NCBI RefSeq assembly: GCF_000759025.1
Contig: NZ_JPOS01000075.1
Coordinates: 124,001 to 188,000, forward strand
From: Phaeodactylibacter xiamenensis
GTDB lineage: Bacteria > Bacteroidota > Bacteroidia > Chitinophagales > Saprospiraceae
Direction of reading: 5' to 3'
Length of the DNA stretch: 64,000 nucleotides
The notes beneath the pieces were generated by a model. That model worked only from the letters and a program-made list of their open reading frames with translations, did not search any database and was not told the origin of the DNA. The stretch's first letter is position 1, and each line of letters starts with the position of its first letter. Below are positions 38,797 through 63,844 of the stretch, one piece after another. A program made the translations under genes and the position numbers.

Positions 38797-39179
38797 GCAA
38801 GGCCTTGCTGCGCTTCGGAACTGTAAAACGCTTAATGTAAAATGCAAAAGTGGCGAGCGTTGCCGTGGGGTCAATCCTGGGTTGAGCTGGGCTTTGGCGG
38901 TCGGTGGGTGTTATGGTTTTATGGTGTTATGGTCCCTCCTTCGCCTTGAGGCTCTGGCGGGTGCTTTGGTATTTTGGTTTTATGGTGTTTTGGTTTAATC
39001 TGTGCGTGGGTGCTTCCCCTTTCTCTGAGCGCAGAAGCTGATGCGAAGGCGTTAGGGGACTGAGGGGCAGCGTGGGTAATGGGGTGTTTTGGTTTTATGG
39101 TGTTGTGGTCTTTCCTTTGCTTTGAGGCTTCGGCGGTCGGTGGGTTTTATGGTTGGGCAGGTTGAATGAGGGCTGGGCG

Positions 39180-39315
39180 GTTAGGGTATACTTTAAGCGT
39201 AGGCTTGGCCTGGGCATATGCCCTAACTTTTGGGTGTGGGATGTGCGACGCTCTACGAGGTCGGAAACCTGGAAGGAGTTTGGGGTGAGTAATATTCGAC
39301 GCTCTGCGAGGTCGG
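39180..39315 (+). repeat. composite repeat A, copy 1
   Basis: Stem-loop GTTAGGGTATAC...ATGCCCTAAC followed by two direct boxes CGACGCTCTACGAGGTCG and CGACGCTCTGCGAGGTCG about 50 bp apart. Confidence 0.85.
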
Positions 39316-39322
39316 TTGGGCG

Positions 39323-39476
39323 GTTAGGGTATACTTTGAGCGTAGGCTTGCCCTGGTAGTATGCCCTAACTTGCGGGTGGGGTATTTGTTAAAACCAAGG
39401 AAAAGTGCGACGCTCTACGAGGTCGGAAAACGCGATGAGGTTTGGAGTGACTAATCTTCGACGCTCTACGAGGTCG
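39323..39476 (+). repeat. composite repeat A, copy 2
   Basis: Same stem-loop plus double CGACGCTCTACGAGGTCG box; follows copy 1 after seven bases. Confidence 0.85.
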
Positions 39477-39712
39477 ATTGGGTTACGGGGGTTCATGTCT
39501 TCGGCGGTCAGAGGGTATTGTGGTTACCTGGTGTTGTGGTCCCTCCTTCGCTTTGAGGCTCTGGCGGGTGCTTTGGTATTTTGGTTTTATGGTGTTTTGG
39601 TTTAATCTGTGCGTGGGTTCTTCCCCTTTAGGGGATTGAGGGGCAGCGTGGGTAATGGGGTTTTATGGTCCCTCCTTCGCCTGAGGGCTACGGCGGGCGG
39701 TGAGGCTGGGCG

Positions 39713-39916
39713 GTTAGGGTATACTTTAAGCGTTGGCTTGGCTTGGGCGTATGCCCTAACTTTTGGGTGTGGGATGTGCGACACTCTACGAGGTCGGTAA
39801 GCGGGAAGCGGTTTGGGGTGACTAATATTCGACGCTATGCGAGGTCGGTGGTTGGGCTGCTGGGGTACACTTTGAGCGTTGGCTGCTTTGGGAGTGTGCT
39901 CCAGCTTGTGGGTAGG
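39713..39916 (+). repeat. composite repeat A, copy 3 (full length)
   Basis: First stem-loop, double box, then second stem-loop GCTGGGGTACACT...AGTGTGCTCCAGC. This is the complete ~200-bp form. Confidence 0.85.
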
Positions 39917-40440
39917 AAAAATGGTTAAAGGGAAAAGGATAAAGGTTAAATGGGCGAGCGTTGCCGTGTGTGCAGTCCTGAGTTGAGCTGGGCTTTGGCG
40001 CCATCCATTTAAAAAGGGAAAGGGAGAACTTCCACCCCCGACCCCCGCCAGGACAGGAATGGTTTTGTATTAGTTGATGTTATGTAGCGGGGGGCTGCCT
40101 TCGCTCTTGCTTCAGCAAACGGAGCACGAGCGTTGCCGTGGGTTCAGTCCTGGGCTACCAGCCTTCGCCTAGGGCTTCGGCTGGCGGGGAGCGCAGTGCT
40201 GGTCAGTCGGTCTGACTGGAGGCGGTCGCATTTCGGCCGTTGCTCCGGGTGGGAGACGGTATGGCGCCTGACCTCAACCTCAACTTCTTTGGGGACTGCC
40301 CAGGATCAAACTCAGCCTCGGCTGGGTATTGGAAAGGCTGGGGCTGACCACTTGCTTCATTACCCCACCTGTTGCGTTTTTAAAGCACTATTTCGTATAC
40401 CAGAAATCAGGTATTTTTGGTTTTTTAAAGCATAATGAGC

Positions 40441-41047
40441 AACATTGTTTTGGAGTTGTCGTAAATTAGAAATGATAAAACGGTGAAACAGAGAGCTATG
40501 CCATTTTTGTGCTTAGCCCTTTTACTTCGACCGATAATTCCCAAAAACACCGGTTACCATGAAACCCATTATTTTTTACCTTCCTGCAAATATCCATCTT
40601 GTTTACCTGTGCATCCTTCAAATCAGGTAAAGGGAAGGAAAACCCTTTGATTTTTAATCTGCCTTTTCCTTAATACTCCTGATTTTTCTGTTTGATAGCA
40701 TCTTTGCCCCTAAAGCATAGGTCCGGAAGTGAAAACGCACCGTGCGGTCAGGGCAACCGAAAGCGAAAACACCCTCCATTTATTACTGAGTATTAAGACC
40801 GTCTCATTTCCAGCATAACAGTCTCTGCCTTACTGTTCGTTAGCGCAGTTGGGCTCTACTCCTTTGTGCATATTCCCCCCTATGCCCGGTGCAGCGTATT
40901 TACAAGTGCCCTTTAATATACGGGTGAGCCTTGTACTTAGGCTGTTACAGGGGAGCAGTATCATGTAAATTATGAATGCAAGCACGGCTGGCCTGAGGTA
41001 AGCCGTTGCCTGTAATATTATTACTTAAACCATCGAAACCCATTTTT
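40441..41047. other. non-repetitive intergenic region upstream of the metalloprotease gene
   Basis: About 600 bp, free of the repeat modules and more AT-rich. No convincing ORF. It should contain the promoter of the protease gene, but no clear TAnnTTTG with a spaced TTG was found. Confidence 0.5.
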
Positions 41048-43996: not shown

Positions 43997-44631
43997 GTTA
44001 GATTTTGTTTTTTAGGTTGGAACTGCAGTTCGGGCTTGACCTGGGCTGCAGTTTTTTTTGTGCCTGGGGCAAAGGGGATGTGCGACACTCTCCGAGGTCG
44101 AAAGAACGAGAGGAGGTTGGGGTGACTAATATTCGACGCTCTACGAGGTCGGTGGTTGGGCTGCTGGGGTACACTTTGAGCGTAGGCTGCTCTGGGGAGT
44201 GTGCTCCAGCTTGTGGGTGGGGAGGGGGTTTTGGTATTGTGGTCCCTCCTTCGCCTTGAGGCTCTGGCGGGTGCTTTGGTATTTTGGTTTTATGGTGTTT
44301 TGGTGTTGAGCGTTGCCGGGTTGGAAATGTAAAATTGACAAGCGTTGCCGGTCGGGGTGACTTGGGTTTTTACATTTCGTACCTACGGCACGAGGCAAAG
44401 GTTGGTCTTTAGAAGTTACCTACATTTTGCCCCTATGGGGCATGGGCTGTTGCAGGGCTGCCGGGTGGGGGGCGCAAATCGGATGTTGCGGCTCCTCCGC
44501 AGGGAGCGGCAATGAATTGTCGCCGCATGGAAGACCGCGCTTAGTCCTCAACCTGAACCTTGACGTGGCCTTGCCCGGGACGAATCTTAACCTCGCCTGG
44601 GCTTGGGCTACCCTGCCAAGGAGGCACCCCA
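43997..44631 (+). repeat. repeat-rich intergenic region 2
   Basis: Contains composite repeat A copy 4 (44080-44222), the GGTCCCTCCTTCGCC/TTTTGGTTTTATGG module (about 44240-44305), and a B repeat (44371-44443: TTTCGTACCTACGGCACGAG ... TTTTGCCCCTATGGGGCAT). No gene. Confidence 0.8.
44080..44222 (+). repeat. composite repeat A, copy 4 (lacks first stem-loop)
   Basis: Double box (first one CGACACTCTCCGAGGTCG) and the second stem-loop GCTGGGGTACACT...AGTGTGCTCCAGC. Confidence 0.85.
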
Positions 44632-46002
44632 TCAACCCACCTGCCCAAACCGGTTCTCCCATACCATCCACCGGCCCCGGGTGAAGTCGGGCACCGGCTG
44701 CGGCTGACTACCGGAGGCCACGGACTGCTCCGAAAGGGGAGTGATGGCCAGCCAGGTGGCGGCATCGTACACATCGATAGGTGGTGGGGTGTTATTTCGG
44801 GCGCTGAGGACGAAATCATTGACCAGGAACCAGTCCATGCCGCCATGGCCGGCGCCTTCGGCATCATCGGCGTGCTTTTGCCAGAGCGGATGGTCGTACT
44901 TTTTCAGGTAGCTTGCTGCCGGTTCCCACTGATGGCCGGGGCTGCTGCCCTCCAGGTGGATGGAATCATTGACATCCATCCATAAGCCTTTGGTGCCCTG
45001 TACCCGGAAGCCCAGAGAGTAGGGGCGGGGCAGATTGGTATCGTGGCTGATGATGATGCTTTCGCCCTTGGCGGTTTTGACAACGGTGGTGATGATATCG
45101 CCCAATTCAAACCGGACTTGTGCATTCGGGTGATCGGGCCCGCCTTTGGGGTGGTTGACGATGTACTCGTGCAGCCCCCGTGACTTGGTGGACGTGGAAG
45201 TCAGGTACAACAGCCGGTTGCCCCGGTTGATGTTGATGTACTGGGCGACCGGGCCAATGCCGTGAGTAGGGTAGAGGTCGCCATTGCGGTGGACGGAGTG
45301 GCGGGTGCGCCAGCGGGCTTCACTGAAGGCTTTTTCTCCAAATTCCACGCCGCTGTTGTAGGCGGTCTCTCCGTCGTTGAACTTCACTCCGCGCAGGTCA
45401 TGCTGATAGCCGCACTCCAGGTGTACGAGTTCTCCGAAGAGGTCCTGGCGCACCATATTCAGCACCGCCATCACATCGCGGCGGTAGCAGACGTTTTCCA
45501 GAAAAAAGAGGGGCGTACCGGTTGCTTCGTGCGTATTGACCAGTTGCCAGCATTCGTCGATGGAGAAGGCACCGCTGACTTCCATTCCTACGTACTTTCC
45601 GGCCTGCATGGCGGCAACGGCCTGTGGGGTATGCCAGCGCCATGGAGTGGCGATGAGGACGGCATCTACGGTATCATCTTCGAGCAGTTCGAGGTAAGCC
45701 TGTTCTCCCTTGTACACCTTTGGAGCTTTGATGTCGTGCTTTTTGAAGAGGTCGAGGGTACGCTTTATCATCCGGTCGTCGATATCGCAGATGGCGGTTA
45801 CGGTGCTGTCGCTGCGGCGCAGGAGGAGGTCGATATGGGATTGCCCGCGCAGCCCGCTGCCGATGATGCCGACGCGCAGGAGGTCACGCTCTTTTTTGGG
45901 AAGGGGCGCAAAGCCGGGTGCGGAGAGGGGTAATCCGGCCAGGCCGGCGCTGGCGAGGGTGGACTTTTGGAGGAAGTCGCGGCGGTTGAGTTTGTCGCTC
46001 AT
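44632..46002 (-). CDS. GH109-like Gfo/Idh/MocA oxidoreductase, Tat-exported
   Basis: 456 residues. Twin-arginine signal NRRDFLQKSTLASAG. Rossmann NAD-binding motif VGIIGSGLRGQSHIDLL. The central piece HRNGDLYPTHGIGPVAQYININRG and the EVSGAFSIDECWQLV segment are characteristic of GH109 alpha-N-acetylgalactosaminidases, which use NAD in hydrolysis. Could equally act on another amino sugar. Export of a bound-NAD enzyme in folded form fits the Tat route. Its minus-strand 3' end abuts repeat material. Confidence 0.82.
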   Translation of the reverse strand: MSDKLNRRDFLQKSTLASAGLAGLPLSAPGFAPLPKKERDLLRVGIIGSGLRGQSHIDLLLRRSDSTVTAICDIDDRMIKRTLDLFKKHDIKAPKVYKGEQAYLELLEDDTVDAVLIATPWRWHTPQAVAAMQAGKYVGMEVSGAFSIDECWQLVNTHEATGTPLFFLENVCYRRDVMAVLNMVRQDLFGELVHLECGYQHDLRGVKFNDGETAYNSGVEFGEKAFSEARWRTRHSVHRNGDLYPTHGIGPVAQYININRGNRLLYLTSTSTKSRGLHEYIVNHPKGGPDHPNAQVRFELGDIITTVVKTAKGESIIISHDTNLPRPYSLGFRVQGTKGLWMDVNDSIHLEGSSPGHQWEPAASYLKKYDHPLWQKHADDAEGAGHGGMDWFLVNDFVLSARNNTPPPIDVYDAATWLAITPLSEQSVASGSQPQPVPDFTRGRWMVWENRFGQVG

Positions 46003-46307
46003 GGCTATGTGGGTTGGTTTTTGGCAAGGTAGGGAATTTTTGGTGTTGTGGGGTTTGGGTTGTTAGGTTTTATGGGGTTTGAAGTGCTGGCCTTGGTTTT
46101 TTGCGGTGGTTGGGGGAAATGTACCCATACGGGCTTTGCTACGCTTAGAAACAGCAAAATTCTTAATGTAACCCATACGGGCCTTCGGAAATGCTCTGCC
46201 CGCTGAAGTAGATATGAAGGAGGGTAAAAGTGGCGAGTGTTGCCGTGGATTCAGTCCTGGGCTACCAGCCTTCGCTTAGGGCTTCGGCTAGCGGGGCGCG
46301 GAGTGCC

Positions 46308-46480
46308 GTTAGGGTATACTTTGAGGGTTGGCGGTTCCGGGGAGTATGCCCTAACTTGCGGGTGGGGGAGGTGCGACGCTCTACGAGGTCGAAAAATCTG
46401 GATGAGGTTTGGGGTGAGTAATGTTCGACGCTCTGCGAGGTCGGTTGGCTTGGCTGCTGAGGTACACTTTGAGCGTTGGC
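46308..46480 (+). repeat. composite repeat A, copy 5
   Basis: First stem-loop, double box, and a second stem-loop whose right half is replaced by an AGGTTG-rich stretch. Confidence 0.8.
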
Positions 46481-46632
46481 TGGGGCGGTGCCGGGCTTTT
46501 CCTGGGGGAGGTTGAGGTTGGTCTGTGGCGGGGTCTCTGCGAGGTTGAGGTTGAGAGCCGGGCGATGGCTTCCTGGACCGACCGTAGACGGTCTCCTGCC
46601 TGGGGGCGAGGGTTGGTCTTCGGGGGCGTGCC

Positions 46633-46830
46633 GTTAGGGTATACTTTGAGCGTTGGCGGCTCGGGGGAGTATGCCCTAACTTGCGGGTGGGGGAGGTGCG
46701 ACGCTCTACGAGGTCGTAAAATCTGGAAGAGGTTTGGGGTGACTAATATTCGACGCTCTACGAGGTCGGTTGGCTTGGGCGTTAGGGTATACTTTGAGCC
46801 CTGGCTGCTCCGGGGAGTATGCCCTAACTT
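46633..46830 (+). repeat. composite repeat A, copy 6
   Basis: First stem-loop and double box, but followed by a second copy of the GTTAGGG-type stem-loop instead of the GCTGGGG-type one, showing that modules recombine. Confidence 0.82.
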
Positions 46831-47251
46831 TTGGATGAGCCTCGCTTGGCTGTCTCTTTGCAAGGTTGAGGTTGGTCTTTGGCGGGGTCTTTGTGAGGTT
46901 GAGGGCCAGGCGGGGTCTTCTTGGGTTGGTCTGCCGGGGTGGTGGCTTGGGGGCGAGCAGTGCCGGTCGGTGTGCCGTCAGGAGGCGGTCGCAAAGCGGC
47001 CGTGCCCCTGGGTGACGCCGCCTGGTGCTCAACCTTAACCTTAGCCTCAACCTTAGCTGGGGCGGTACCGGGCTTTTCCTGGGGGAGGTTGAGGGCCGGG
47101 GTATGGCTGCCTGGGCCGACCGTTTGCGGTCTCCTGCCGGGGGGCAAGCGTTGCTGGTCGGAGTGGCTGGGGAATCAGAAGGCTGGGGGAAGGGACCTTC
47201 TTCGTCGGGACTTCGTCGGTTGCGGAATCTTAGGTTTCGAGTGAAAGCGTT

Positions 47252-48442: not shown

Positions 48443-49875
48443 GATTGATGGTTGTACCATGCAATATAAATTTTTTCTGCTGGATTCGACCAGTAAAATT
48501 GATTTTTGATCACTTTTGAAAGGAAGGAATGCACAACCTTTCCGTGGGGAACGAGGATAAGGTTGGTCTTGGCGAGGATGAGGATACCGACTCTGCACAA
48601 GGCTGCGTCAGCCGGAGAAGGGTTGGGGAGTTTAGGGTTTAGGGGGGCGAGTGGCGCCGTGGGGTTGGTTTTGGGTTTTGTGGTGTTTTCCCGCCGTCGC
48701 CTGTGGCTTTGGCGGGCGGTGGGTTTTATGGTGTTGCAGCCTCGCCCGGCGCACTTCTTTCGCCGGGCGTGCTTGTTGGGTTGTCTTGGGTTTCGAGCGT
48801 TGCCGGTCGGTGTGACGCTGCTTTCACATGCTGTACCTACGGCACAGGGCGTTGGGTTGGCTTGGAGGTTACTGACATTTTGCCCCTAACGGGGCAGTGC
48901 CGGTCGCTGGGTCTGCGGGAGGCGGTCGCAAAGCGACCGTTGCTTTTGGAGGGAGCTGGCGGGTGCTTCTCTGTCTGTGGGAGCTTAAGCAGGGGCGGAA
49001 ACCTTAACCTTGGCTGGGCTTTGCCCTGGACCAACCTCAACCTTAGCCCTGCCCGGGGAGAGGCTAAGGTTGGTCTGTGGAGGGTCTTGGCGAGGATGAG
49101 GTTGTCGACTCTGCACAAGGCTACGTCGGCCGGAGAAGAGCCAGGCGATGGCTGCCTGGTCCGACCGTTTGCGGCCTTTTGCCGGGGGGCGAGGGTTGGT
49201 CTTCGGGGGCGTGCCGTTAGGGTATACTTTGAGCGTTGGCGGCTCCGGGAAGTATGCCCTAACTTGCGGGTGGGGGAGGTGCGACGCTCTGCGAGGTCGA
49301 AAAATCTGGAAGAGGTTTGGGGTGACTAATATTCGACGCTCTACGAGGTCGGGTGGCTTGGGCTGCTGGGGTACACTTTGAGCGTTGGCTGCTTTTGGGA
49401 GTGTGCTCCAGCTTGTGGGTGGGGAGGTTGAAGTTTAGGGGTTAGGGGTTAGGGTTTAGGGGCGAGCGTTGCCGGTCGGTTGGTCTTGGGATTTGGGCGG
49501 TGCCGGTGGGTGTGGCTGGGCTTTCACATTTCGTACCTACGGCACGAGTCGACGGGCGGTCTTGGGTGTTACCGACATTTTGCCCCTATGGGGCATGGGC
49601 TGTGGTTTGGAACTGCAAAACAGAGAAATGTACCCATACGGGCCTTGCTGCGCTTCGGAAATGTAAAACTGAAAAATGTAAAAGTGGCGAGCGTTGCCGT
49701 TGGTGCGGTCTTGGGGCGAGCGTTGCTGGTCGGTGGGTCTTCAGGAGGCGGTCGCAAAGCGGCCGTGGCACTGGGGGGCGCAGGCTGGTCCTTAACCTCA
49801 ACCTCAACCTCAACCTTGTCAGGGCTGTGCTCTGGACCAAGCTCAGCCTCCCCTGTCCGCCCTGCGCACCCAGCC
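48443..49875 (+). repeat. repeat-rich intergenic region 4
   Basis: Contains the GCCCGGCG...CGCCGGGC hairpin (about 48747-48772), diverged B repeat (48821-48897), a perfect-stem CGGTCGCAAAGCGACCG hairpin (about 48922), composite repeat A copy 7, a TTAGGGG-rich patch (about 49436-49460), B repeat (49521-49598), CCCATACGGGCC words and the CGGTCGCAAAGCGGCCG hairpin (about 49748). Repeats reach to within a few bases of the manC stop. No gene. Confidence 0.8.
49216..49420 (+). repeat. composite repeat A, copy 7 (full length)
   Basis: First stem-loop, double CGACGCTCTNCGAGGTCG box with the usual AATCTGGAAGAGGTTTGGGG spacer, second stem-loop. Confidence 0.88.
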
Positions 49876-50940
49876 CTACTTATCCACCAAATGCTTAATC
49901 TCCTGCTCTCTGGACTTGGGCCAGATGAGGAGGACATCGCCTTCGTCAACCACGATGTAGTCGTCCAGGCCGCCGATGACGAGGCGCTTGCCTTTGGGGG
50001 CGCGGACGAGGGTGTCTTGGGTGTCGATCAGCTGTATGGGGCTGCCTTGTGCGACATTGCTTTGGTCGTCTTTAGGGCTTTCGGCGTGGAGGGAGGCCCA
50101 GGTGCCGAGGTCTGACCAGCCGAAGTCGCTGGGGATGGTGAAGACGTTGCCGGCTTTTTCCATAATGGCGTAGTCTACAGAGATGGAGGGGGTGGTGGGG
50201 TAGGCCTCATCGATGAAGGCCTGCTCCTGTGGGGTGTTGTAGTGGGGGGCGCCGGCGCCGAGGATGCGGTGGATCTCGGGGGCGTTTTCGGCGAAAGCCT
50301 TCAGTAGGCTGCTGACGCGCCAGACGAAGATGCCGGCATTCCAGAGGTAGTTGCCGCTATCGAGGTATTGCTGGGCAGTGGGGCGGTCGGGCTTTTCGCG
50401 GAAGGCTTTGACGGATTTGGGCTGGTTGCTGTCGCCGGGGACTTTGGGGTCGATTTCGATGTAGCCGTAGCCGGTATCGGGGCGGGTGGGGGTGATGCCG
50501 AGGGTGAGCAGGGCGTCGTTGGCAGCGGTGAAGGCGAGCCCTTGCTGCAGGGTTTCCACGAAAGTGTCTTCTTTGAGGATGATGTGGTCGCTGGGGGCGA
50601 CGACGAGGTTGGCGTCCGGGTTGAGGGCCTGCAGCTTGAAGGCGGTGTAGGCGATGCAGGGGGCGGTGTTGTTGCGGGAGGGCTCGGTGAGGATCTGATT
50701 GTCGGTGAGCTCCGGCAGGTGTTCTTTGACGAGCCCGGCGTATTGCTTGTTGGTGACGATAAAGATGTTGGAGGCGGGGCAGAGCTTCAGGAAGCGCTCG
50801 AAGGTGAGGCGGATGAGGGACTTACCGACGCCGAGGATGTCGAGGAATTGCTTTGGGCGTTCTTCCCGGCTGGCGGGCCAGAAGCGGCTGCCGATGCCGC
50901 CTGCCATAATGGCTACGTAGGTGTTGCTGTTGTTGGGCAT
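49876..50940 (-). CDS. manC: mannose-1-phosphate guanylyltransferase
   Basis: 354 residues. Nucleotide-binding signature AGGIGSRFWPASREERPKQFLDI at the N-terminus, LVVAPSDHIILKED, and GTWASLHAESPKDD near the end. It has only the guanylyltransferase domain, not the fused phosphomannose isomerase. Makes GDP-mannose for capsule, LPS or exopolysaccharide. The next gene upstream on the same strand is a Wzi/RemB-like outer-membrane protein, although a 1.7-kb repeat block separates them. Confidence 0.92.
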   Translation of the reverse strand: MPNNSNTYVAIMAGGIGSRFWPASREERPKQFLDILGVGKSLIRLTFERFLKLCPASNIFIVTNKQYAGLVKEHLPELTDNQILTEPSRNNTAPCIAYTAFKLQALNPDANLVVAPSDHIILKEDTFVETLQQGLAFTAANDALLTLGITPTRPDTGYGYIEIDPKVPGDSNQPKSVKAFREKPDRPTAQQYLDSGNYLWNAGIFVWRVSSLLKAFAENAPEIHRILGAGAPHYNTPQEQAFIDEAYPTTPSISVDYAIMEKAGNVFTIPSDFGWSDLGTWASLHAESPKDDQSNVAQGSPIQLIDTQDTLVRAPKGKRLVIGGLDDYIVVDEGDVLLIWPKSREQEIKHLVDK

Positions 50941-51455: not shown

Positions 51456-51940
51456 CTTTCACATTTCGTACCTACGGCACGAGGCTACGGGCGGTCTTGG
51501 GTGTTACCGACATTTTGCCCCTATGGGGCATGGGCTGTGGTTTGGAACTGCAAAACAGAGAAATGTACCCATACGGGCCTTGCTGCGCTTCGGAAATGTA
51601 AAATATAAAATGCAAAAGTGACAGGCGTTTCCGGTCGGTGTGTCTCCGGGCTTTCACATTTCGTACCTACGGCACGAGGCTACGGGCGGTCTTGGGTGTT
51701 ACCGACATTTTGCCCCTATGGGGCATGGGCTGTGGTTTGGAACTGTAAAACAGAGAAATGTACCCATACGGGCCTTGCTGCGCTTCGGAAATGTAAAATA
51801 TAAAATGCAAAAGTGACAGGCGGTGCCGGTCGGTGTGTCTCCGGGCTTTCACATTTCGTACCTACGGCACGAGGCTATGGGCGGTCTTGGGTGTTACCTA
51901 CATTTTGCCCCTATGGGGCATGGGCTGTGGTTGGTCTGCC
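51456..51940 (+). repeat. 195-bp tandem repeat, about 2.5 units
   Basis: The word CTTTCACATTTCGTACC recurs at 51456, 51651 and 51846, exactly 195 bp apart, with the intervening B repeat, CCCATACGGGCC word and AAATATAAAATGCAAAAGTG spacer repeated almost unchanged. Confidence 0.88.
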
Positions 51941-52079
51941 GGGTGCGGTGGCTTGGGGGCGAGCGTTGCCGGTTGCTTGGTCTGCCGGGGCGGTGGCTTG
52001 GGGGCAAATATTACATTTTCTTTTCCTGGATGAAAAGAAACAAAAATTCCCGGTTATACCGGGATGCATCGTTCTTAAC

Positions 52080-52246
52080 GGGAAAATCGCGAAGGAGCGG
52101 CTCGTGCCTACAAACTCGCCTTGGTGCAGGGCGGGTTAAGGGTGCGTGGTGAATAGCATGATGCTGGTTTTTCAGGTGATTGGGCGTTTGGGCTCAAACA
52201 GTGTATCCACGTCACTGCGTGAACGCCGCTCCTCCGCGATTTTCCC
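52080..52246. repeat. MITE-like element with 21-bp inverted ends
   Basis: GGGAAAATCGCGAAGGAGCG at 52080 is mirrored, with one mismatch over 21 bp, by the sequence at 52226-52246. The right part (52190-52283) is shared with 57106-57202 (GGGCTCAAA-AGTGTATCCACGTCACTGCGTG and onward), where the left arm is missing. No coding capacity. Confidence 0.6.
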
Positions 52247-52674
52247 TAAACGCTGCAATGCCGGGGGCCAGGCTGGGTCTTCCTGGTGGTGGCTGCCGGG
52301 GCGGTGGCTTGGGGCGAGCGCTGCCGGTCGGTGGGTCGTCAGGAGGCGGTCGCAAAGCGGCCGTGGCTTTGGGTGACGTCGCCTGGTGCTCAACCTTAAC
52401 CTTAGCCTCAACCTTGGCTGGGACAGTGCCGGGCTTTTCCTGGGGGAGGTTGAGGTTGGTCTTCTGTGCTTGGTCTGCCGGGGCGGTGGCTTGGTGGCGA
52501 GCGTTGCCGGTCGGTTGGTCTCGGGCTGCCGGTCGGTGGGTCGCCGGGAGGCGGTCGCAAAGCGGCCGTGGCCTTGGGGGGCGGCGCCTGGTGCTCAACA
52601 TTAGCCTTAACCTCGGCTGGGCTAGCCTGGGGCCACCCCAGACCTAGATAGGTCTTGCCCGGGGCCTCCCGGCC

Positions 52675-54276
52675 TCAAAAGTCCTGATAAGAAGTGTAGA
52701 GGTTGGTACGCAGGCCAAAGTATGCCCAGCGGCTGTCGGGGAAGCCGCCGACTTCGCTGGTCTCGGTGCGGGACTGATAGCCGGCGTGGACTTCGAGGTT
52801 GTAAAGGGGGTTGATGGTGAAGGCGGCCTCGGCGCGCAGGTAGGTGAGGTCGCCGAGGTTGCCTTGTACGGCGAAGACGCCGGTGTCGGCAGAGCGGATG
52901 TCGAAGGACTTGAAGATGTCGCCGCCCCAGTTCTCGCCGGGGGCATCGCGGCCGGTACGGCCCTGGTGGTAGGCGGCCAGGAAGCTCCAGCGGCCAATAC
53001 GGTAGTGGGCACGGACGAGCATTTCCTCAAAATTGGCGCCCCAGGGGTGGGCGAGGGGCTGCTGATAGTGGCCCCAGTTGGTGAGGATCTCCCGGTGGGC
53101 GTAGATGTGGGGGCGGGCGATGTTGTACTCGGCGCGGAGGAAGAGGTTGCGGATGCCAAAGGCGTCGCCCCATTTCAGCCCGGCCTGCCAGGCCATCATG
53201 TTGAGCCAGCTGCCTTCGCTCCAGTTGAAGACGGCGGAGGAGGTGAACTCGTCCATCGCCATTTGGCCGTAAGCCAGTATGCCATTCTTAAAGTGGTAGG
53301 AGGCCTGAAGGCCCATGAGGGTGTTGCCGCCGGCGAAGCCTTGTGCGAACTCCACGGGGCGGTAAAGGATGACGGGGTTGAGGAAGCTGGGGTCGAAGCC
53401 GTAGCGGTTGAGCTCGTCGCCCCACATGATGCCTTCGAAGAGCCCGAGGTTGAAGCGCTTGCCGATATTGGCGCTCAGGTAGTGCATGGACATGTACTTC
53501 TTGGCGAAGATGTTGCCGACCATCACGCTGTCGCGGAGGTCGTTCATAATGGCCCAGGTGTTGACGTAGCGGAATTTCCAGAAGGTGGTCTCGATGCGGA
53601 AGTAGGGGTAGTTGACGCCGTTGTCGGACATCAGCAGGGAGCGGTAGCCTTCGCCGATGAACTGCTTGCCGTGGCCGAGGCGGAAGTGGAAGTTGGGGGT
53701 GGGCGTGTAGGCGACTTCCCCGGCGGCGTAGGCGTAGTCGCGGGCGTTTTCCCCAAAATTTTTGGAGAGCCAGTAGCCGGGCACTACGCCCCGGTTTTGG
53801 CGCACGAAGGCCTGTACGTGCATGGGCAGGCGGGCCTGGGTTTCCACCAAAGTGGTATAGGCGGAGACTTTGCCGAGCTGCAGTTCGAGGCGGGCGCCGC
53901 GGCTGTTGCGGTAGGTGTAGTCGAAGTCGCCTTCGCTGTCCTGCCCGCCGCGGAAGTATACCACGGGGTTGAGGGTGAAGTAGTGGTCTTTGCCCCGGGA
54001 GTGGATGAAGTCTTCGTACAGGGCTTTGCGTTCTACCCAGTCCCAGAGCCCGCCTTTTTTGACGATGGTGTCGGGCAGGAGGTCGCCTTTGCGGCTGTAG
54101 GGGTCTACTTCGTCCCGCCTCCAGGGGCGGATGGCGGTGTGGAGCTGATGGGTGTCGCGCAGGAGGGCGTTTTCGTGCCAGTAGCGTTCCTGGGGGTTGA
54201 GCTGCAGGAGCTGGTATTGGGCGTAGGTGAGGGTGGGGAGGAGGAGTAGGAGGTATAGTAGGATGTGGGCTTTCAT
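52675..54276 (-). CDS. outer-membrane beta-barrel protein (Wzi/RemB-like)
   Basis: 533 residues. Signal peptide MKAHILLYLLLLLPTLTYAQ, then a run of alternating amphipathic strands rich in Tyr, Phe and Trp (for example FHFRLGHGKQFIGEGYRSLLMSDNG, YLSANIGKRFNLGLFEGIMWGDE), ending in aromatic residues. The layout resembles the capsule-assembly Wzi family and RemB gliding proteins of Bacteroidota. May hold polysaccharide at the surface; manC lies downstream. Exact family not certain. Confidence 0.75.
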   Translation of the reverse strand: MKAHILLYLLLLLPTLTYAQYQLLQLNPQERYWHENALLRDTHQLHTAIRPWRRDEVDPYSRKGDLLPDTIVKKGGLWDWVERKALYEDFIHSRGKDHYFTLNPVVYFRGGQDSEGDFDYTYRNSRGARLELQLGKVSAYTTLVETQARLPMHVQAFVRQNRGVVPGYWLSKNFGENARDYAYAAGEVAYTPTPNFHFRLGHGKQFIGEGYRSLLMSDNGVNYPYFRIETTFWKFRYVNTWAIMNDLRDSVMVGNIFAKKYMSMHYLSANIGKRFNLGLFEGIMWGDELNRYGFDPSFLNPVILYRPVEFAQGFAGGNTLMGLQASYHFKNGILAYGQMAMDEFTSSAVFNWSEGSWLNMMAWQAGLKWGDAFGIRNLFLRAEYNIARPHIYAHREILTNWGHYQQPLAHPWGANFEEMLVRAHYRIGRWSFLAAYHQGRTGRDAPGENWGGDIFKSFDIRSADTGVFAVQGNLGDLTYLRAEAAFTINPLYNLEVHAGYQSRTETSEVGGFPDSRWAYFGLRTNLYTSYQDF

Positions 54277-54469
54277 TGCTTTGAGTGGTTTTGGGGGTGA
54301 AGGTAGGGGTTTTTTGGGTTTTGTTTTGGTCTTGGGGTGGGTCTTGAGAGGTAAAGGTTTAAGTTTAGAGTTTAAAGTTTAAAGTTTAGAGGGGCGAGCG
54401 GTGCCGTTGGTTCAGTCCTGGGCTACCAGCCTTCGACTGGAGCTTCGGCGGGCGGGGCGCGGAGTTGCC

Positions 54470-54660
54470 GTTAGGGTATACTTTGAGCGTTGGGCTGCTC
54501 CGGGAAGTATGCCCTAACTTGCGGGTGGGTGATTTTAAAACTAAAGAAGAGTGCGACGCTCTACGAGGTCGTAAAATCTGGATGAGGTTTGGGGTGACTA
54601 ATATTCGACGCTCTACGAGGTCGGGTGGCAGTGCCGTTAGGGTATACCTTGAGCGTTGGC
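54470..54660 (+). repeat. composite repeat A, copy 9
   Basis: First stem-loop, a GATTTTAAAACTAAAGAAGAG insert-like spacer, double box, then the beginning of another GTTAGGG stem-loop. Confidence 0.82.
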
Positions 54661-54950
54661 GGCTCTGGTGCCAGGCTTTTCCTGGGGAAGGTTGAGGTTG
54701 GTCTGTGGCGGGGTCTTTGCGAGGATGCTGACTCCCCATACGGGCCAGTGTTGGCGCTCAGCTACGTCAGCCGGAGAAGGATGAGGGTCAGGGCGGGGTC
54801 TTCGGGGCTGGGTCTACCGGGGCGGTGTCTTGGGGTGAGCGTTGCCGGTGGGTAGGTCGTCAGGAGGCGGTCGCAAAGCGGCCGGGGCCTTGGAGGACGC
54901 TGGTGGGCCCTCAACCTCAACCTTAACCTCAGCCTTAACCTTAGCCTTGG

Positions 54951-55137
54951 CTGCTCCGGGAAGTATGCCCTAACTTGCGGATGGGAAGGGTGCGACGCTC
55001 TGCGAGGTCGAAAAATCAGGATGAGGTTTGGGATGACTAATATTCGACACTCTGCGAGGTCGGTTGGCTTGGGCTGCTGGGGTATACTTTGAGCGTTGGC
55101 TGCTTTTGGGAGTGTGCTCCAGCTTGTGGGTGGGGAG
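54951..55137 (+). repeat. composite repeat A, copy 10
   Basis: Begins in the right arm of the first stem-loop (CTGCTCCGGGAAGTATGCCC) directly after an AACCTY run, the same junction as in the 331-bp tandem array at 61-62.7 kb; then double box and second stem-loop. Confidence 0.85.
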
Positions 55138-55224
55138 GTTGAAGTTTAGGGGTTAGGGTTTAGGGGCGAGCGTTGCCGGTCGGTTGGTCTTGGGATTTGG
55201 GCGGTGCCGGTGGGTGTGGCTGGG

Positions 55225-55607
55225 CTTTCACATTTCGTACCTACGGCACGAGGCTACGGGCGGTCTTGGGTGTTACCGACATTTTGCCCCTATGGGGCAT
55301 GGGTTGTGGTTTGGAACTGCAAAACAGAGAAATGTACCCATACGGGCCTTGCTGCGCTTCGGAAATGTAAAACGCGAAATGCAACCCATACGGGCCTTCG
55401 GAAATGTAAAAGTGGCGAGCGTTGTCGTTGGTGCAGTCTTGGGGCGAGCGTCGCTGGTCGGTGTGGCGCTATTTTTTGTGACGGAAAAGTTAGAATCTCC
55501 ACCCCCGACCCCTGCCAGGATGGGAATGGTTTTGTGTTGGGTATTGGTGTATAGCAGGGGACCTGCCGTCGCTATTGCTTTGGCAGGCAGGGCACGAGCG
55601 GTGCCGA
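55225..55607 (+). repeat. left long direct repeat flanking the toxin-antitoxin islet
   Basis: Matches 57341-57723 closely over 383 bp, in the same orientation: B repeat, CCCATACGGGCCTTGC words, GTGACGGAAAAGTTAGAATC and the CCACCCCCGACCCC module. Confidence 0.85.
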
Positions 55608-55700
55608 TTGGGTGGTCTTGGGATTCGAGCAGTGCCGGTCGGTGTGGCAGGCACGCCCGGCGCACTCGCTGTTCGACGTAGTTTGAAACGCCAGTATACA

Positions 55701-55770
55701 TCCATACGGACAAGTCCATACGGACAAGTCCATACGGACAAGTCCATACGGACAAGTCCGTACGGATAAA
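55701..55770 (+). repeat. 14-bp tandem repeat, five units
   Basis: Four perfect units of TCCATACGGACAAG and a fifth diverged one (TCCGTACGGATAAA). The core CCATACGG is close to the CCCATACGGGC word of the dispersed repeats. Confidence 0.92.
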
Positions 55771-55807
55771 TTATGGGGAGTCGGTCCCTTCGCCGGGTGG
55801 CTTACTC

Positions 55808-57002: not shown

Positions 57003-57832
57003 AATTACTTCCTTTAAACAAGTTTCTGATTCTTTTGGTTTCTGAATATAATATTAAGGATTTTTAGTTATGTGTTGTATTTGTTGTAACGATGTTTATC
57101 CGATAGGGCTCAAATAGTGTATCCACGTCACTGCGTGGCCGTCGTCTGCCTGCGATTTTCCCTAAAGGCTGCAATGCCGGGGGCCAGGCGGGGTCTTCTT
57201 GGCGGGGTCTGCCGGGGGTATGGCTTGGGGGCGAGCGTTGCCGGTGGGTGAGGCTGTCTCGCCCGGCGCTCTCCTTTCGCCGGGCGTGCTCGTTGGGGTG
57301 GTCCTGGAATACTAGCGTTGCCGGTCGGTGGGTCTCCGGGCTTTCACATTTCGTACCTACGGCACGAGGCATGGGTTGGTCTTTGGAGTTACCGACATTT
57401 TGCCCCTATGGGGCATGGGCTGTGGTTTGGAACTGCAGAACAGAGAAATGTACCCATACGGGCCTTGCTGCGCTTCGGAAATGTAAAACGCGAAATGCAA
57501 CCCATACGGGCCTTCGGAAATGTAAAAGTGGCGAGCGTTGTCGTTGGTGCAGTCTTGGGGCGAGCGTCGCTGGTCGGTGTGGCGCTATTTTTTGTGACGG
57601 AAAAGTTAGAATCTCCACCCCCGACCCCCGCCAGGATGGGAATGGTTTTGTGTTGTTTATTGGTGTATAGCGGGGGACCTGCCTTCGCTCTTGCTTTGGC
57701 AGGCAGGGCACGAGCGGTGCCGTTGGTGCGGTCTTGGGGCGAGCAGTGCTGGTCGGTTGGTCGTCAGGAGGCGGTCGCAAAGCGGCCGTTGCCTTGGGTG
57801 ACGCTGGCTGGTCCTTCTCCGTCCGACGTAGC
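57003..57832 (+). repeat. repeat-rich intergenic region 7
   Basis: After ~100 bp of AT-rich islet sequence come the half MITE-like block (57106-57202), the GCCCGGCG...CGCCGGGC hairpin (about 57260-57290), the right long direct repeat and a CGGTCGCAAAGCGGCCG hairpin (about 57770). No gene. Confidence 0.8.
57341..57723 (+). repeat. right long direct repeat flanking the toxin-antitoxin islet
   Basis: Second copy of the 383-bp block at 55225-55607, 2116 bp away, same orientation. Confidence 0.85.
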
Positions 57833-57836
57833 TTAA

Positions 57837-59476
57837 CCCGGATTATTCACGGCAAGGCATAAAAAAAGGGTATAAGTTCTTATATTAGAGTTGCTTAGGC
57901 TTCAAAAAATATAAAAACTCCATACCCAAAAATGAGTAATAAAAATACGGCTTTTTATCAGAATAAAAAACAATACACCTTCGATTTTTCGGGCCAGGAA
58001 ACCAGCTCAGATGGAGGCTTTAGCCTTCTGTACAAACTGGCGAGAAGATCAAAATTGATCAAAGCGTTCAGTGAGCAGGTCCCCGACCGGCGCGACCCTG
58101 AGCTGATCACTTACAGTGTTGAAGAGCTGATAATGCAACGGGTAATGCTGCTGGCTTGCGGTTACGAAGATTGTAATGATGTAGATTACCTCAAGGAAGA
58201 CCCCTTGCTGAAAGCTCTAATGGATAACGGCTTGTGTTCTCAACCAACGCTGAGCCGCCTGGAAAACAGCCTGAACATGGGCGCCGTGTACCGGCTGGCT
58301 GAGTGGTGGGTTGACCGGTATGTGGCTAGTTTGCCCACTGATAAAGAGTATGTGATCATTGATGTGGATTGTACCGACGACCCTACCCATGGAGATCAGC
58401 AGGGCAGTTTGTTTCACGGCTACTACTGGCAGTGGATGCTCAATGAGCTGTTTTATATAGATGGGGAAACGGGGCAAATCATCCTGCCGGTATTGCGCCC
58501 CGGCAACGTACACTCCAATAAATGGAATGACAGGTTTTTGCGGGTAATCGCCAGGAAAATCCGCCAGCGCTTTGGGGATATTCAAATCATCGTCCGGGCT
58601 GATGGCGGCTTTTCCTGCCCTGGTTTTTATGAGGTAGTGGAGGAGCAAGACCTTGATTTTTGCATTGGCCTTACATCTAACCCCCGCCTGAAAGCGGCGG
58701 TCCGGAAATCTTATGACTGGGTCAATAAGCACTATGGGCAAAAGGGGGCCCGGCATCAAAAGTTTGTAGGGCCCTTCAGTTACCAGGCTGATTCCTGGGA
58801 TAACCCTCAGCAAGTATATGCCAAAATTGAATCGACGGGCAAAGGCATGAATCTGCGTTTTATCGTTAGCAACTTTGCCGACGACGATGCCGAAGAGCTA
58901 TACAAAGATTTTTATGTGCAACGCGGAGAGGCCTCTGAAAACCGGATCAAGGAAGTGAAGAACATGTGTTTTTCAGACCGGCTCAGTTGCCATCGTTTCA
59001 GTGCCAACTTCTTCCGGCTTATGCTGTCGTGCCTGGCTTATGAGTTGTTGCGCAATTTACGGGGACTGATCCGAAAAACGGCTCATGCCAAAGCCTGGGC
59101 CTGGTCGGTACAGTCTATCCGGCTATATCTGCTAAAAGTAGCTGCCCAGGTTCATGAAACGGTTCGCAGGATACACATTCGTTTTTCGCGAGCCTTTTCC
59201 CAACAGAACCTGTTCCGAGAAGTGATGATGCAGTGTTAGTGGCTCGCCAGCCAGGGGTCAACAAGGAGGGGGGTTTTTCTACAGGGGGCAAGCCCTGGAG
59301 GGAAGGCTATGCCCTTGGCTCATCATTTTCGGCTTTTTTCCGGCAAAATGAGAAAAAATTCTTGGCGAAGGAAAATTTAATTCTATTCCAACCGGGAGCC
59401 AAGGAGTAGTTTTGATAAAATCAGCGCGGCATGGAGTTAAAATTTAATTTCAACTCCATGCCGTGAATAATCCGGG
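57837..59476 (+). mobile_element. IS1380-family insertion sequence with TTAA target duplication
   Basis: Perfect inverted ends CCCGGATTATTCACGG (57837-57852 and complement of 59461-59476), flanked on both sides by TTAA (57833-57836, 59477-59480). One transposase gene inside. About 1.64 kb, intact by appearance. Confidence 0.9.
57932..59239 (+). CDS. IS1380-family transposase
   Basis: 435 residues of a DDE transposase. Catalytic Asp candidates in VIIDVDCTDDPTHG and IIVRADGGFSCPGFYE, Glu in RGEASENRIKEVKN; the YYWQWMLNELFYIDGETGQ stretch is typical of the family. ATG at 57932 preceded by an AT-rich leader inside the left end. No frameshift seen, so probably active. Confidence 0.93.
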   Translation: MSNKNTAFYQNKKQYTFDFSGQETSSDGGFSLLYKLARRSKLIKAFSEQVPDRRDPELITYSVEELIMQRVMLLACGYEDCNDVDYLKEDPLLKALMDNGLCSQPTLSRLENSLNMGAVYRLAEWWVDRYVASLPTDKEYVIIDVDCTDDPTHGDQQGSLFHGYYWQWMLNELFYIDGETGQIILPVLRPGNVHSNKWNDRFLRVIARKIRQRFGDIQIIVRADGGFSCPGFYEVVEEQDLDFCIGLTSNPRLKAAVRKSYDWVNKHYGQKGARHQKFVGPFSYQADSWDNPQQVYAKIESTGKGMNLRFIVSNFADDDAEELYKDFYVQRGEASENRIKEVKNMCFSDRLSCHRFSANFFRLMLSCLAYELLRNLRGLIRKTAHAKAWAWSVQSIRLYLLKVAAQVHETVRRIHIRFSRAFSQQNLFREVMMQC

Positions 59477-60867: not shown

Positions 60868-60911
60868 GGATTTCCGGAAATGGCTTTAACCGGGTGAAAT
60901 AGCGCCGTGCC

Positions 60912-61090
60912 GTTAGGGTATACTTTGAGCCCTGGCTTCCCCGTGAAGTATGCCCTAACTTATGGGTGGGTGATTTTAAAACTAAGGAAAGGTGCGACGC
61001 TCTAAGAGGTCGAAAAATCTGGATGAGGTTTGGGATGACTAATATTCGACACTCTGCGAGGTCGGTTGGCTGGGCGTTAGGGTATACTTT
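60912..61090 (+). repeat. composite repeat A, copy 11
   Basis: First stem-loop, GATTTTAAAACTAAGGAAAG spacer as in copy 9, double box, leading straight into the next GTTAGGG stem-loop. Confidence 0.85.
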
Positions 61091-61099
61091 GAGGGTTGG

Positions 61100-62705
61100 C
61101 TGCTCCGGGAAGTATGCCCTAACTTGCGGGTGGGAAAGGTGCGACGCTCTGCGAGGTCGAAAAATCAGGATGAGGTTTGGGATGACTAATATTCAACGCT
61201 CTTCGAGGTCGGTATGCTTGGGCTGCTGGGGTACACTTTGAGCGTGGACTGCTCTGGGAGTGTGCTCCAGCTTGCGGGTGGGGAGGTTGAAGTTTAGGGG
61301 TTAGGGTTTAGGGGGTGAGCGTTGCCGGTCGGTTGGTCGCCAGGAGGCGGTCGCAAAGCGGCCGTGCCCGTGGAGGACGCTGGTGGGCCCTCAACCTCAA
61401 CCTCAGCCTCAACCTTAGCCTTGGCCTTGGCTGCTCCGGGAAGTATGCCCTAACTTGCGGGTGGGAAAGGTGCGACGCTCTACGAGGTCGAAAAATCAGG
61501 ATGAGGTTTGGGATGACTAATATTCAACGCTCTTCGAGGTCGGTATGCTTGGGCTGCTGGGGTACACTTTGAGCGTGGACTGCTCCGGGAGTGTGCTCCA
61601 GCTTGCGGGTGGGGAGGTTGAAGTTTAGGGGTTAGGGTTTAGGGGGTGAGCGTTGCCGGTCGGTTGGTCGCCAGGAGGCGGTCGCAAAGCGGCCGTGCCC
61701 GTGGAGGACGCTGGTGGGCCCTCAACCTCAACCTCAGCCTCAACCTTAGCCTTGGCCTTGGCTGCTTCGGGAAGTATGCCCTAACTTGCGGGTGGGAAAG
61801 GTGCGACGCTCTACGAGGTCGAAAAATCAGGATGAGGTTTGGGATGACTAATATTCGACGCTCTTCGAGGTCGGTTGGCTGGGCTGCTGGGGTACACTGT
61901 GAGCGTGGACTGCTCCGGGAGTGTGCTCCAGCTTGCGGGTGGGGAGTTTGAAGTTTAGGGGTTAGGGTTTAGTGGCGAGCGTTGCCGGTGGGTAGGTCGC
62001 CAGGAGGCGGTCGCAAAGCGGCCGGGGCCTTGGAGGACGCTGGTGGGCCCTCAACCTCAACCTCAGCCTCAACCTTAGCCTTGGCCTTGGCTGCTCCGGG
62101 AAGTATGCCCTAACTTGCGGGTGGGAAAGGTGCGACGCTCTACGAGGTCGAAAAATCAGGATGAGGTTTGGGGTGACTAATATTCGACGCTCTTCGAGGT
62201 CGGTATGCTTGGGCTGCTGGGGTACACTTTGAGCGTGGACTGCTCCGGGAGTGTGCTCCAGCTTGCGGGCGGTGGGTGTTGTGGTCCCTCCTTCGCCTTG
62301 GGGCTACGGCGGGTGCTTTGGTATTTTGGTTTTATGGTGTTATGGCGGGGCAGGCTCGCCCGGCGCACTTCTTTCGCCGGGCGTGCTAGTTGGGAGGGTC
62401 CTGGATTTTGAGCGTTGCCGGTCGGTAGGTCGCCAGGAGGCGGTCGCAAAGCGGCCGGGGCCTTGGAGGACGCTGGTGGGCCCTCAACCTCAACCTTAGC
62501 CTTAACCTCAGCCTTAACCTTGGCTGCTCCGGGAAGTATGCCCTAACTTGCGGGTGGGGAAGGTGCGACGCTCTACGAGGTCGAAAAATCAGGATGAGGT
62601 TTGGGATGACTAATATTCGACGCTCTTCGAGGTCGGTATGCTTGGGCTGCTGGGGTACACTTTGAGCGTGGACTGCTCCGGGAGTGTGCTCCAGCTTGGG
62701 GGTGG
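61100..62705 (+). repeat. 331-bp tandem array of composite repeat A units (about 4-5 units)
   Basis: The junction word TGCTCCGGGAAGTATGCCC (TGCTTCGGG in one) recurs at about 61101, 61432, 61763, 62092 and 62524, i.e. spacings of 331, 331, 329 and 432 bp. Each unit holds the right arm of stem-loop 1, double box, stem-loop 2, TTAGGGGTTAGGGTTTAGGG patch, CGGTCGCAAAGCGGCCG hairpin and an AACCTY run. The last unit has an inserted GGTCCCTCCTTCGCC/GCCCGGCG module. Near-identity of units implies recent expansion. Confidence 0.9.
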
Positions 62706-62710
62706 GAATA

Positions 62711-63361
62711 TTACCCCCTATTCTTGTGAGGGGCAATACTCAAATAAGGGTTGTCATAAATGTTGATGGGGAGGGCACGGAAGGGGAGCTGCTGCTGCCA
62801 GGCGATGTAGTTGAAGCTGAGCTGGTCGCGGCGGCTGTGCTGCTGGTAGAAATGCCACCACGCATTGCTGAATTGAATGACGGCTGCATGGTGGTGCTGC
62901 CGGGCTATAAGGCCACAGGCGGCCAGGCCCTGATGCGGTGGGTAGTTTTGGGTGCGAATGGTATCTACGGTCTTTTGGATGAGGACGGGGTCGTCTTTGT
63001 GGTGGCGGGTACACCAATCGGCTTCTTCGTATATGCAGTCGCGGTAGGGATGGCGGAATAGGACGAAGGGGGATTGCCGGAGGGCTTCCCGGAATAAGCT
63101 TAGGATGGCAGAGCCGGTGAATTGCATATTGGCGTCGTGCCAAATGCTGGTGGGGTAGTGGGGGAGGAAAAGGTGGGGCAGGAGCTTGGGCAGACGGGAG
63201 GCGCGGATAGGGTCCTGGTGCAGGGGCGGGCAGGAGATGATCTGATACTGATCGCTCTGCAGGGGCTGATCGGTAAAGCAGAGGTAGTCCACTCCCGGGA
63301 AATCGGGCTGCGGGCGCAGGGTGTCGTAGGGGCTGAATATGGCGGTGTACAGGGTGAGGAT
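62711..63361 (-). CDS. TOD1/MUCI70-like glycosyltransferase (DUF616)
   Basis: About 216 residues. Family landmarks in order: LYTAIFSPYDTLRPQPD, VDYLCFTDQPL, DPIRASRLPKLLPHLFL, SIWHDANMQFTG, FRHPYRDCIYEEADWC, GLAACGLIARQHH and RRDQLSFNYIAW. The GTG at 63292 falls inside the conserved domain, so translation must begin further upstream, but no ATG, GTG or TTG exists in frame there; ATC at 63361 or CTG at 63352 are the only near-starts. Repeat material begins about 40 bp further on, so the natural 5' end may have been replaced. Probable cell-surface or polysaccharide glycosylation. Confidence 0.75.
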   Translation of the reverse strand: MLTLYTAIFSPYDTLRPQPDFPGVDYLCFTDQPLQSDQYQIISCPPLHQDPIRASRLPKLLPHLFLPHYPTSIWHDANMQFTGSAILSLFREALRQSPFVLFRHPYRDCIYEEADWCTRHHKDDPVLIQKTVDTIRTQNYPPHQGLAACGLIARQHHHAAVIQFSNAWWHFYQQHSRRDQLSFNYIAWQQQLPFRALPINIYDNPYLSIAPHKNRG

Positions 63362-63844
63362 GGGAAAAAGAGACTTTAGATTGCTGGGGCTTTGATGTTT
63401 TTGGCCGAGCGTTGCCGGCCGATGTGGCTTAGGGAATCAGAACGCCGGGGGCGCTCCCTTCCCCCGGCGTTCTGTAAGCAGTGCCCCGCTGGTGTGGCCT
63501 TGGCTTTCACATTTCGTACCTACGGCACGAGGCAAGTAGTAGTCTTGGGGGTTACCTATATTTTGCCCCTAGCGGGGCACTGGCTGCGGCGGGTCTGCCG
63601 GGGGCGCTCCCTTCCTCCGGCGTTCTGTAAGCAGTGCCCAGCTGGTGTGGCTTTGGCTTTCACATTTCGTACCTACGGCACGAGGCAAGTAGTAGTCTTG
63701 GGGGTTACCTATATTTTGCCCCTAGCGGGGCATTGGCTGCGGCGGGCTCCGCAAAGCAGGCGTGGCGGCTCCTCCATAGGGAGCGGCAATTAATTGTCGC
63801 CGTATAGAAGGCTGCGCTTCGGACCAACCTGAACCCTAGCTGCC
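63362..63844 (+). repeat. repeat-rich intergenic region 9 with 153-bp tandem duplication
   Basis: GAGCGTTGCCGG start, then two 153-bp units (GGGGGCGCTCCCTTC at 63447 and 63600), each with a B repeat whose hairpin loop is TAGC (GCCCCTAGCGGGGC). No gene. Confidence 0.82.

Follow-up and report, generated by a model that had tools for sequence, protein, structure and literature searches.

In Phaeodactylibacter xiamenensis, a domain of roughly 100 kb around a surface-polysaccharide cluster carries a marked strand asymmetry: in genes of either orientation, composition leans towards G on the forward (+) strand, in some strongly and in some not, and hairpin repeats in the intergenic gaps face one way. 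The domain extends from C75:162.8 kb to about C77:4.2 kb and includes the last 25 kb of the window, by which we mean the whole stretch of 64,000 nucleotides analysed here (G000:C75:124001-188000). G000 denotes the organism's own genome (7.87 Mb, 164 contigs), G002 a congener, further G numbers other compared genomes, and C numbers contigs; positions given without a contig are those of the window. The join of C75 to C76 within the domain was deduced from contig order and composition, and that of C76 to C77 is bridged by G002:C24.

The bias in the genes, which had escaped an earlier, sequence-only reading of the window, has the sign of the chromosome's weak replication-strand skew and points to a replication-signed process acting at the DNA level. 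The asymmetry itself can be read directly from the genes and gaps, whereas its cause is what we infer. Tentatively, and with somewhat less than even confidence, we favour a local amplification of replication-strand asymmetry by over-exposure of the lagging-strand template. Among the literature matches listed, none describes such a one-way, strand-skewed domain.

Strand bias in coding genes

Skew and strand effect inside and outside the domain were compared using all open reading frames (ORFs) of at least 200 aa on both sides, some of them probably spurious, in a sample covering part of the 7.87 Mb. Among 388 outside ORFs, the coding skew at four-fold sites has a mean of -0.044 (standard deviation 0.161, minimum -0.45, maximum 0.67). 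Six reverse-strand ORFs of the domain lie beyond that minimum (-0.80, -0.73, -0.72, -0.53, -0.53 and -0.48), and on the forward strand the two known genes with the strongest skew (0.43 and 0.50) reach the 99th percentile of the outside ORFs. Four-fold sites are C-rich in several reverse genes, such as that at C76:52543 (C 0.82, G 0.13), and G-rich in some forward genes, such as those at C77:2662 (G 0.59, C 0.20) and C76:63442 (G 0.54, C 0.22). Over all ORFs of at least 200 aa, the strand effect is 0.372 and 0.251 in two pieces of the domain versus -0.086 to 0.148 in 20 other stretches. Small samples reached 0.186 on C80, where a single reverse gene was available, and -0.216 on C85, where the ORFs are probably antisense. 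The right edge of the domain falls between C77:4.2 and 5.1 kb.

For two of the genes, position matters. The mannose-1-phosphate guanylyltransferase-like gene (GMP) has a skew of -0.80 and -0.82 in G000 and G002, as against +0.18 in G003 and -0.25 in G005; the bPH_2 gene shows 0.50, 0.55 and 0.45 in G000, G002 and G004, as against 0.08 and 0.12 in G003 and G005.

Further skew domains were considered at the starts of C78 and C85 and were rejected, since the ORFs there, judged by eye, probably lie antisense to genes for repetitive proteins of secreted type. As a separate observation, two overlapping forward ORFs outside the domain (L026, G000:C77:17530-19151) have coding skews of 0.42 and 0.45 and are about 97% conserved in G002.

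Relation to the replication strand

Stretches sampled from C20 to C83:170 kb mostly show a positive four-fold strand effect, which is near zero at C83:50-110 kb (0.020 and 0.005). Past C83:170 kb the effect turns negative, though weakly so on C90 and C98, and it is negative on C10, C12 and C18 as well, with C2 ambiguous. Across C83:170261, the only exact dif-like site, it passes from 0.068 to -0.059 on few genes; this dif candidate is weak evidence, since a reversed control pattern gave 15 matches with at most one mismatch. The sign therefore flips near the candidate and between C18 and C20, a pattern that makes the domain's + strand the leading one and most of its genes head-on. The + strand sequence is then that of the lagging-strand template. 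This bears out the replication-strand link suggested by the sequence-only reading. The domain was also considered as the replication terminus itself and rejected, the dif candidate lying on another contig; 20-kb stretches sampled beside the candidate are ordinary. Elsewhere, G000:C75:1-160000 has strand effects of 0.023 and -0.006, unlike C77-C79 of the same replichore (0.085-0.148), possibly owing to a recent inversion.

The spectrum of the bias was expressed as the difference between + and - genes. For 17 hand-picked domain genes (10 reverse and 7 forward; AAA ATPases, toxin-antitoxin-type genes, transposases, the Wzc-like gene, DUF genes and the metalloprotease were among those left out), it amounts to C -0.371, G +0.310, T +0.063 and A -0.002, and for 278 ORFs outside the domain in the same replichore to C -0.070, G +0.056, T +0.023 and A -0.009. 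The amplification is thus about five-fold for C and G, and three- to four-fold for T and for NNY and NNR sites. Compared with chromosome-wide GC skew, the domain bias has the same sign and a similar, not identical, spectrum; it differs in being local, in its strength (in the picked genes about five-fold for G and C, and some three-fold for T and for purine-ending codons) and in having at least one sharp edge.

A one-way repeat mosaic in the gaps

Between the end of speE (stop codon at 38796) and that of the window, the gaps are packed with a small vocabulary of modules. The mosaic that the sequence-only reading had described from speE onwards, in one orientation and opposite to most genes, proved real: eleven module words give 127 matches on the + strand and none on the - strand in 38797-63844, and a single stray match, on the - strand, in the first 38.8 kb, from which the modules had been said to be absent. 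Repeat families whose members measure 40-300 nt, the largest with 23 copies, were recovered without prior words. The pattern continues to the end of C75 (190,783) and on C76 (43-63 kb), on the + strand for nearly all words; exceptions are AACCTY runs and one short GAGCGTTGC match on the - strand at C76:9.3 kb. Genome-wide, orientation counts (+/-) for modules are 50/1, 28/0 and 16/0. Single-gap mosaics outside the domain are also in + orientation at C26 and C39, where the strand effect is positive, and at C37, which lies between positive contigs; C78 carries two degenerate H1-like words on the + strand. Three-G quadruplex motifs number 15 on + and 2 on - in the domain versus 1 and 3 in C75:1-162 kb. 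An Rfam scan returned three matches, all far below gathering scores, and no known RNA family.

Module A comprises the hairpins H1 and H2 around two d repeats. By eye, in 24 copies, stem positions are changed on both sides between the H1 and H2 forms, which look like divergent versions of one hairpin. Alignment of the d repeat with a transposase flank on C22 does not exceed shuffles (score 18, shuffle maximum 32), and a link between the two was set aside. Core attC sites of integrons have the form RYYYAAC...GTTRRRY. The ends of H1 (GTTAGGG...CCCTAAC, by eye) show the reverse arrangement; no integron integrase was present among the scanned proteins, and no genome-wide search for IntI was made.

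Module B and the Y1 transposases

Module B is represented by 44 distinct copies (exact duplicates dropped, fetched stretches only) on eight contigs (C75, C76, C39, C10, C81, C54, C83 and C80), 14 of them at C54. The copies align as two hairpins, most of them preceded by ACAT or close variants. Their stems are paired in 97.1% of 526 cells, and 67 cells are altered on both sides, compared with 19.7 in shuffles and 0-18 with a slid partner; these counts are generous, as the copies are related. Both-side changes occur in 6 of 12 pairs (shuffle mean 4.1).

The search for a transposase elsewhere in the genome, proposed with the sequence-only reading, yielded three Y1_Tnp genes (match at 1.2e-27). 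All three match the IS200 family model over its cut-off; one also matches REP_Tyr_transpos below its cut-off, and none reaches the REP-transposase cut-off. The Y1_Tnp gene on C54 sits within an array of B relatives with a period of about 308 bp, and alignment of module B with this array scores 68 (shuffle maximum 24). The other two genes are accompanied by hairpins of different kinds, each confined to the contig of its gene. B relatives occur in both orientations at C54, C83 and C80, and only on + in the domain. The C54 array (L221:16663-19581), with the transposase amid paired opposite hairpins, is a possible source locus of the B family.

On the grounds of its sequence, its covarying hairpins and its relatives arrayed around a Y1 gene, module B can be classed with elements resembling repetitive extragenic palindromes (REPs) and bacterial interspersed mosaic elements (BIMEs), with a related locus that holds an IS200/IS605-like Y1 transposase gene. 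REPs, BIMEs and REP doublets (REPINs), with their Y1 transposases (REP-associated tyrosine transposases, RAYT, or TnpA-REP), share with module B short imperfect palindromes, mostly intergenic location, paired hairpins, mosaics and relatives around a Y1 gene. The domain repeats differ in showing no GTAG or CGTC foot in the module B alignment (ACAT stands before most hairpins), in a single rather than alternating orientation, in the IS200-type transposases, and in modules A, g, K and R, which lack a known transposase. The earlier contention that these are not ordinary REP elements is partly wrong, module B being REP-like. Taken together, the repeats are a REP-like mosaic with unusual polarity, and the gene strand bias is the surprising part.

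Conservation in relatives

The congener G002 has the same gene order over its contigs C25 and C24 (speE, metalloprotease, GH109 and GMP, then M20 peptidase, bPH_2 genes and onwards), as established by comparing ORFs of four G000 pieces with these two contigs only. Among the left-hand genes protein identity is 77-97%, with 533 of 996 residues covered in the metalloprotease; most right-hand genes exceed 90%. The gaps of G002 share many modules with those of G000, relative orientation being preserved and lengths differing (4056 versus 2209 bp between speE and the metalloprotease, 6413 versus 3873 bp in another gap). On the contig JANSXW010000216.1 of a metagenome-assembled genome (MAG), the genes for AmtB and glutamine synthetase, about 90% identical as DNA, are followed by modules on one strand. 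In G003, about 40 bp (by eye) separate the homologues of the outer-membrane-type gene and of GMP; the corresponding gap in G000 holds 1734 bp of modules. An artefact of assembly, which the sequence-only reading had raised for this contig, or of binning is scarcely credible given the modules, gene order and skew of G002, the modules beside orthologous genes on the MAG contig and the ordinary sequence that makes up 160 kb of C75, even though both C75 and C76 end inside the domain.

Scanning genome contigs with CGACGCTCTRCGAGGTCG gave at least 115 stretches, mostly in unrelated genomes, the query being too unspecific; among the matches listed, only L171 has four or more module words, and L093, a Saprospiraceae MAG, has only the d word. 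By eye, the GMP gene of G003 (L186:765-850, C8) carries apparently in-frame heptamer repeats resembling GGAAGTC; none are seen in that of G000.

Candidate explanations

The explanation that we favour supposes that the lagging-strand template stays single-stranded longer in the domain, possibly through slowing of forks at the long head-on polysaccharide cluster on the reverse strand and at hairpin- or G-rich repeats. The exposed strand would acquire substitutions biased to G (and T), and would offer Y1 'peel-and-paste' elements their preferred target, so that these come to face one way, while direct repeats would allow composite units to multiply by slippage, template switching or unequal recombination. 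One report (PMC5371812) indicates that insertion of IS608-type elements is directed to the lagging-strand template, with a preference for termination sites, perhaps because single-stranded DNA persists longer at stalled forks, which would tie gene bias and repeat orientation to one cause. IS200/IS605 elements (IS608, ISDra2) resemble the domain repeats in that their orientation follows replication; the domain repeats, for which insertion of this kind is a supposition, differ in being non-coding and in not being insertion sequence copies. A broader version, in which a species-conserved locus with a chronically exposed lagging-strand template forms a zone of replication-polarised evolution, polarising substitution and element orientation over about 100 kb, is possible and rather unlikely.

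Several results weigh against the exposed-template explanation. Near-background genes lie inside the domain (metalloprotease -0.12, AmtB 0.11, glutamine synthetase-like gene 0.05, M20 peptidase 0.06). The head-on polysaccharide cluster at C76:5-35 kb, low in GC, is not strongly skewed, which is evidence against transcription there as the direct cause; we take this to reflect recent acquisition. GMP is also strongly skewed in three of 26 relatives (G010 -0.67, G011 -0.63, G034 -0.60), so that a strong skew of GMP alone is not unique; these relatives are more distant, and the GMP flanks there have skews of only -0.01 to -0.10. In the other replichore, C (+0.089) and T (-0.050) are mirrored and G (-0.004) is not, and the four-fold G of the domain is gained mainly from C, with T up little in picked genes (10 reverse and 4 or 7 forward), unlike plain cytosine deamination. 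Synonymous divergence between G000 and G002 in picked pairs is 0.248 in the domain (6 genes) versus 0.190 outside (14 genes), a slight rise that led us to reject strong hypermutation. As for the repeats, modules A, g, K and R yielded no associated transposase; in module B, further pair types are no more numerous than in shuffles, of which 471 out of 500 gave an equal or higher number; one g copy is reversed in G002, as is one H1-arm match; the mosaic at C3:31 kb is also +, on a contig whose replichore could not be assigned; and G4-type motifs on the + strand of the domain's left part number 7, versus a mean of 2.7 and a maximum of 6 in mononucleotide shuffles. Moreover, composite units are plainly duplicated locally, which alone gives one orientation.

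Local duplication surely contributes to the uniform orientation. That it acted alone, a few REP-like insertions having spread between gaps in fixed orientation by direct-repeat recombination, gene conversion or template switching, with the gene skew a separate matter, is unlikely, though it accommodates the near-tandem composites of about 331, 195 and 153 bp, the composites common to different gaps and to G002, and the identical internal polarity of single-gap mosaics elsewhere (by eye); it leaves unexplained both the synonymous-site strand bias of neighbouring genes and its agreement in sign with replication skew. Selection for a polar G-rich leading-strand signal, read by a translocase or recombination enzyme and acting on genes and gaps, would account for a bias that is one-way, leading-strand and G-rich, and GGTGG (220 + and 52 - in the domain versus 301 and 246 in the rest of C75) and GCTGGTGG (8 and 0 versus 10 and 4) speak for it. 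Codon-preserving shuffles of 12 hand-picked domain genes, however, show no dominant motif, an idea that we rejected (best z 6.2, for CTTT and CCAAA; GGTGG 82 versus 60 expected, z 4.5), and the ordinary stretches sampled beside the dif candidate, on C83, tell against such a signal, which we consider improbable. FtsK-orienting polar sequences (KOPS) are polar leading-strand motifs. The domain shares that leading-strand bias with KOPS, and differs in its long modules, where KOPS are short words, and in lying on other contigs than the dif candidate; Chi-like signals belong to the same proposal. To an old integrated replicon or island, whose own strongly one-sided replication would have left the skew as a relic, we give an equally low probability: the right edge and the transposase genes inside the domain suit it, whereas G003 and G005 orthologues have ordinary skew, background-skew genes are interspersed, and no relaxase, conjugation or site-specific integrase domain was detected among 40 scanned proteins (38 in or beside the domain, one a 51-aa fragment), which represent part of the domain genes.

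Features of the window and gene surroundings

The ~330-bp composite of family D3 (Table 1) has five copies at 86-100%, four of them within the stretch listed.

Table 1. Repeat features and genes in the last 25 kb of the window.
Feature	Position	Strand	Remarks
Gap, speE to metalloprotease	38797..41005	+	g, T/Q words, three H1 and one H2 hairpins, d repeats, Z, R
Gap, metalloprotease to GH109	43997..44631	+	d d H2 Q T T g B1 B2; G002 order identical up to B1
GH109/Gfo-Idh-MocA family gene	44632..46002	-	coding-strand four-fold skew -0.42
Gap, GH109 to AAA ATPase	46003..47251	+	P words, H1/d composites, R, AACCTY
Gap, ATPase to GMP	48599..49875	+	K hairpin, B, R, A composite, P
Module A (example)	49216..49412	+	H1 hairpin, two d repeats, H2 hairpin
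Mannose-1-phosphate guanylyltransferase-like gene (GMP)	49876..50940	-	four-fold C 0.82, G 0.09, skew -0.80
Gap, GMP to outer-membrane-type gene	50941..52674 (1734 bp)	+	A composite, three B at 195-bp spacing, R
Module B (example)	51459..51544	+	two hairpins, ACAT 5' of each in most copies
Module B, further copies	44370, 49524, 51849, 55228, 57344, 63507, 63660	+	
Outer-membrane-type gene (our reading; no Pfam or NCBIfam match)	52675..54276	-	four-fold C 0.79, G 0.12, skew -0.73
Gap	54277..55807	+	A, R, B, P, Z modules, short tandem repeats
Gap	57070..57931	+	g, K, B, P, Z, R modules; ends at insertion sequence element
DDE transposase (DDE_Tnp_1_4)	57932..59239	+	four-fold skew 0.07
Composite unit ~330 bp (H1-d-d-H2-g-R-AACCTY), near-tandem copies	60871..62710	+	family D3
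TOD1/MUCI70 glycosyltransferase-like gene	62711..63292	-	four-fold C 0.68, G 0.16
Two B-containing units, 153-bp spacing	63293..63845	+	family D16, 97%

The domain encloses a low-GC reverse-strand cluster of glycosyltransferases, asparagine-synthase-like genes, an ABC transporter ATPase and a Wzz/Wzc-like gene that stays under the Pfam cut-offs; three of ten scanned cluster proteins have no family. Genes for GDP-mannose dehydratase, an epimerase and GMP adjoin it. In Thauera, arrays of GTAG-1 REPs are reported to adjoin exopolysaccharide genes (PMC3733652).

Transposases of the domain have skews of 0.07, 0.09 and -0.14. The DDE transposase is probably a late insertion; by eye, it stands between inverted ends at 57830-59475, apparently with TTAA on both sides, and interrupts a mosaic stretch. 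Also by eye, a short tandem array of a ccatacggacaagt-like unit lies at 55697-55765, and a low-GC HepT-like gene with a nucleotidyltransferase-like stretch, a toxin-antitoxin pair of MNT-HepT type, lies inside the mosaic at 55808-56530. One scanned protein has a sorting domain of type IX secretion system (T9SS) type just under the Pfam cut-off, which, like the d word in the Saprospiraceae MAG, points to Bacteroidota.

Implications

Replication-strand asymmetry is usually treated as a chromosome-wide property, and a sharp-edged locus where it is several-fold stronger departs from that. With ordinary orthologues in relatives and one-way repeats of its own, such a locus would be a natural test system for the cause of strand bias, at which exposure of single-stranded DNA, head-on transcription and selection could each be tested, as could the idea that single-strand transposable elements mark such places.

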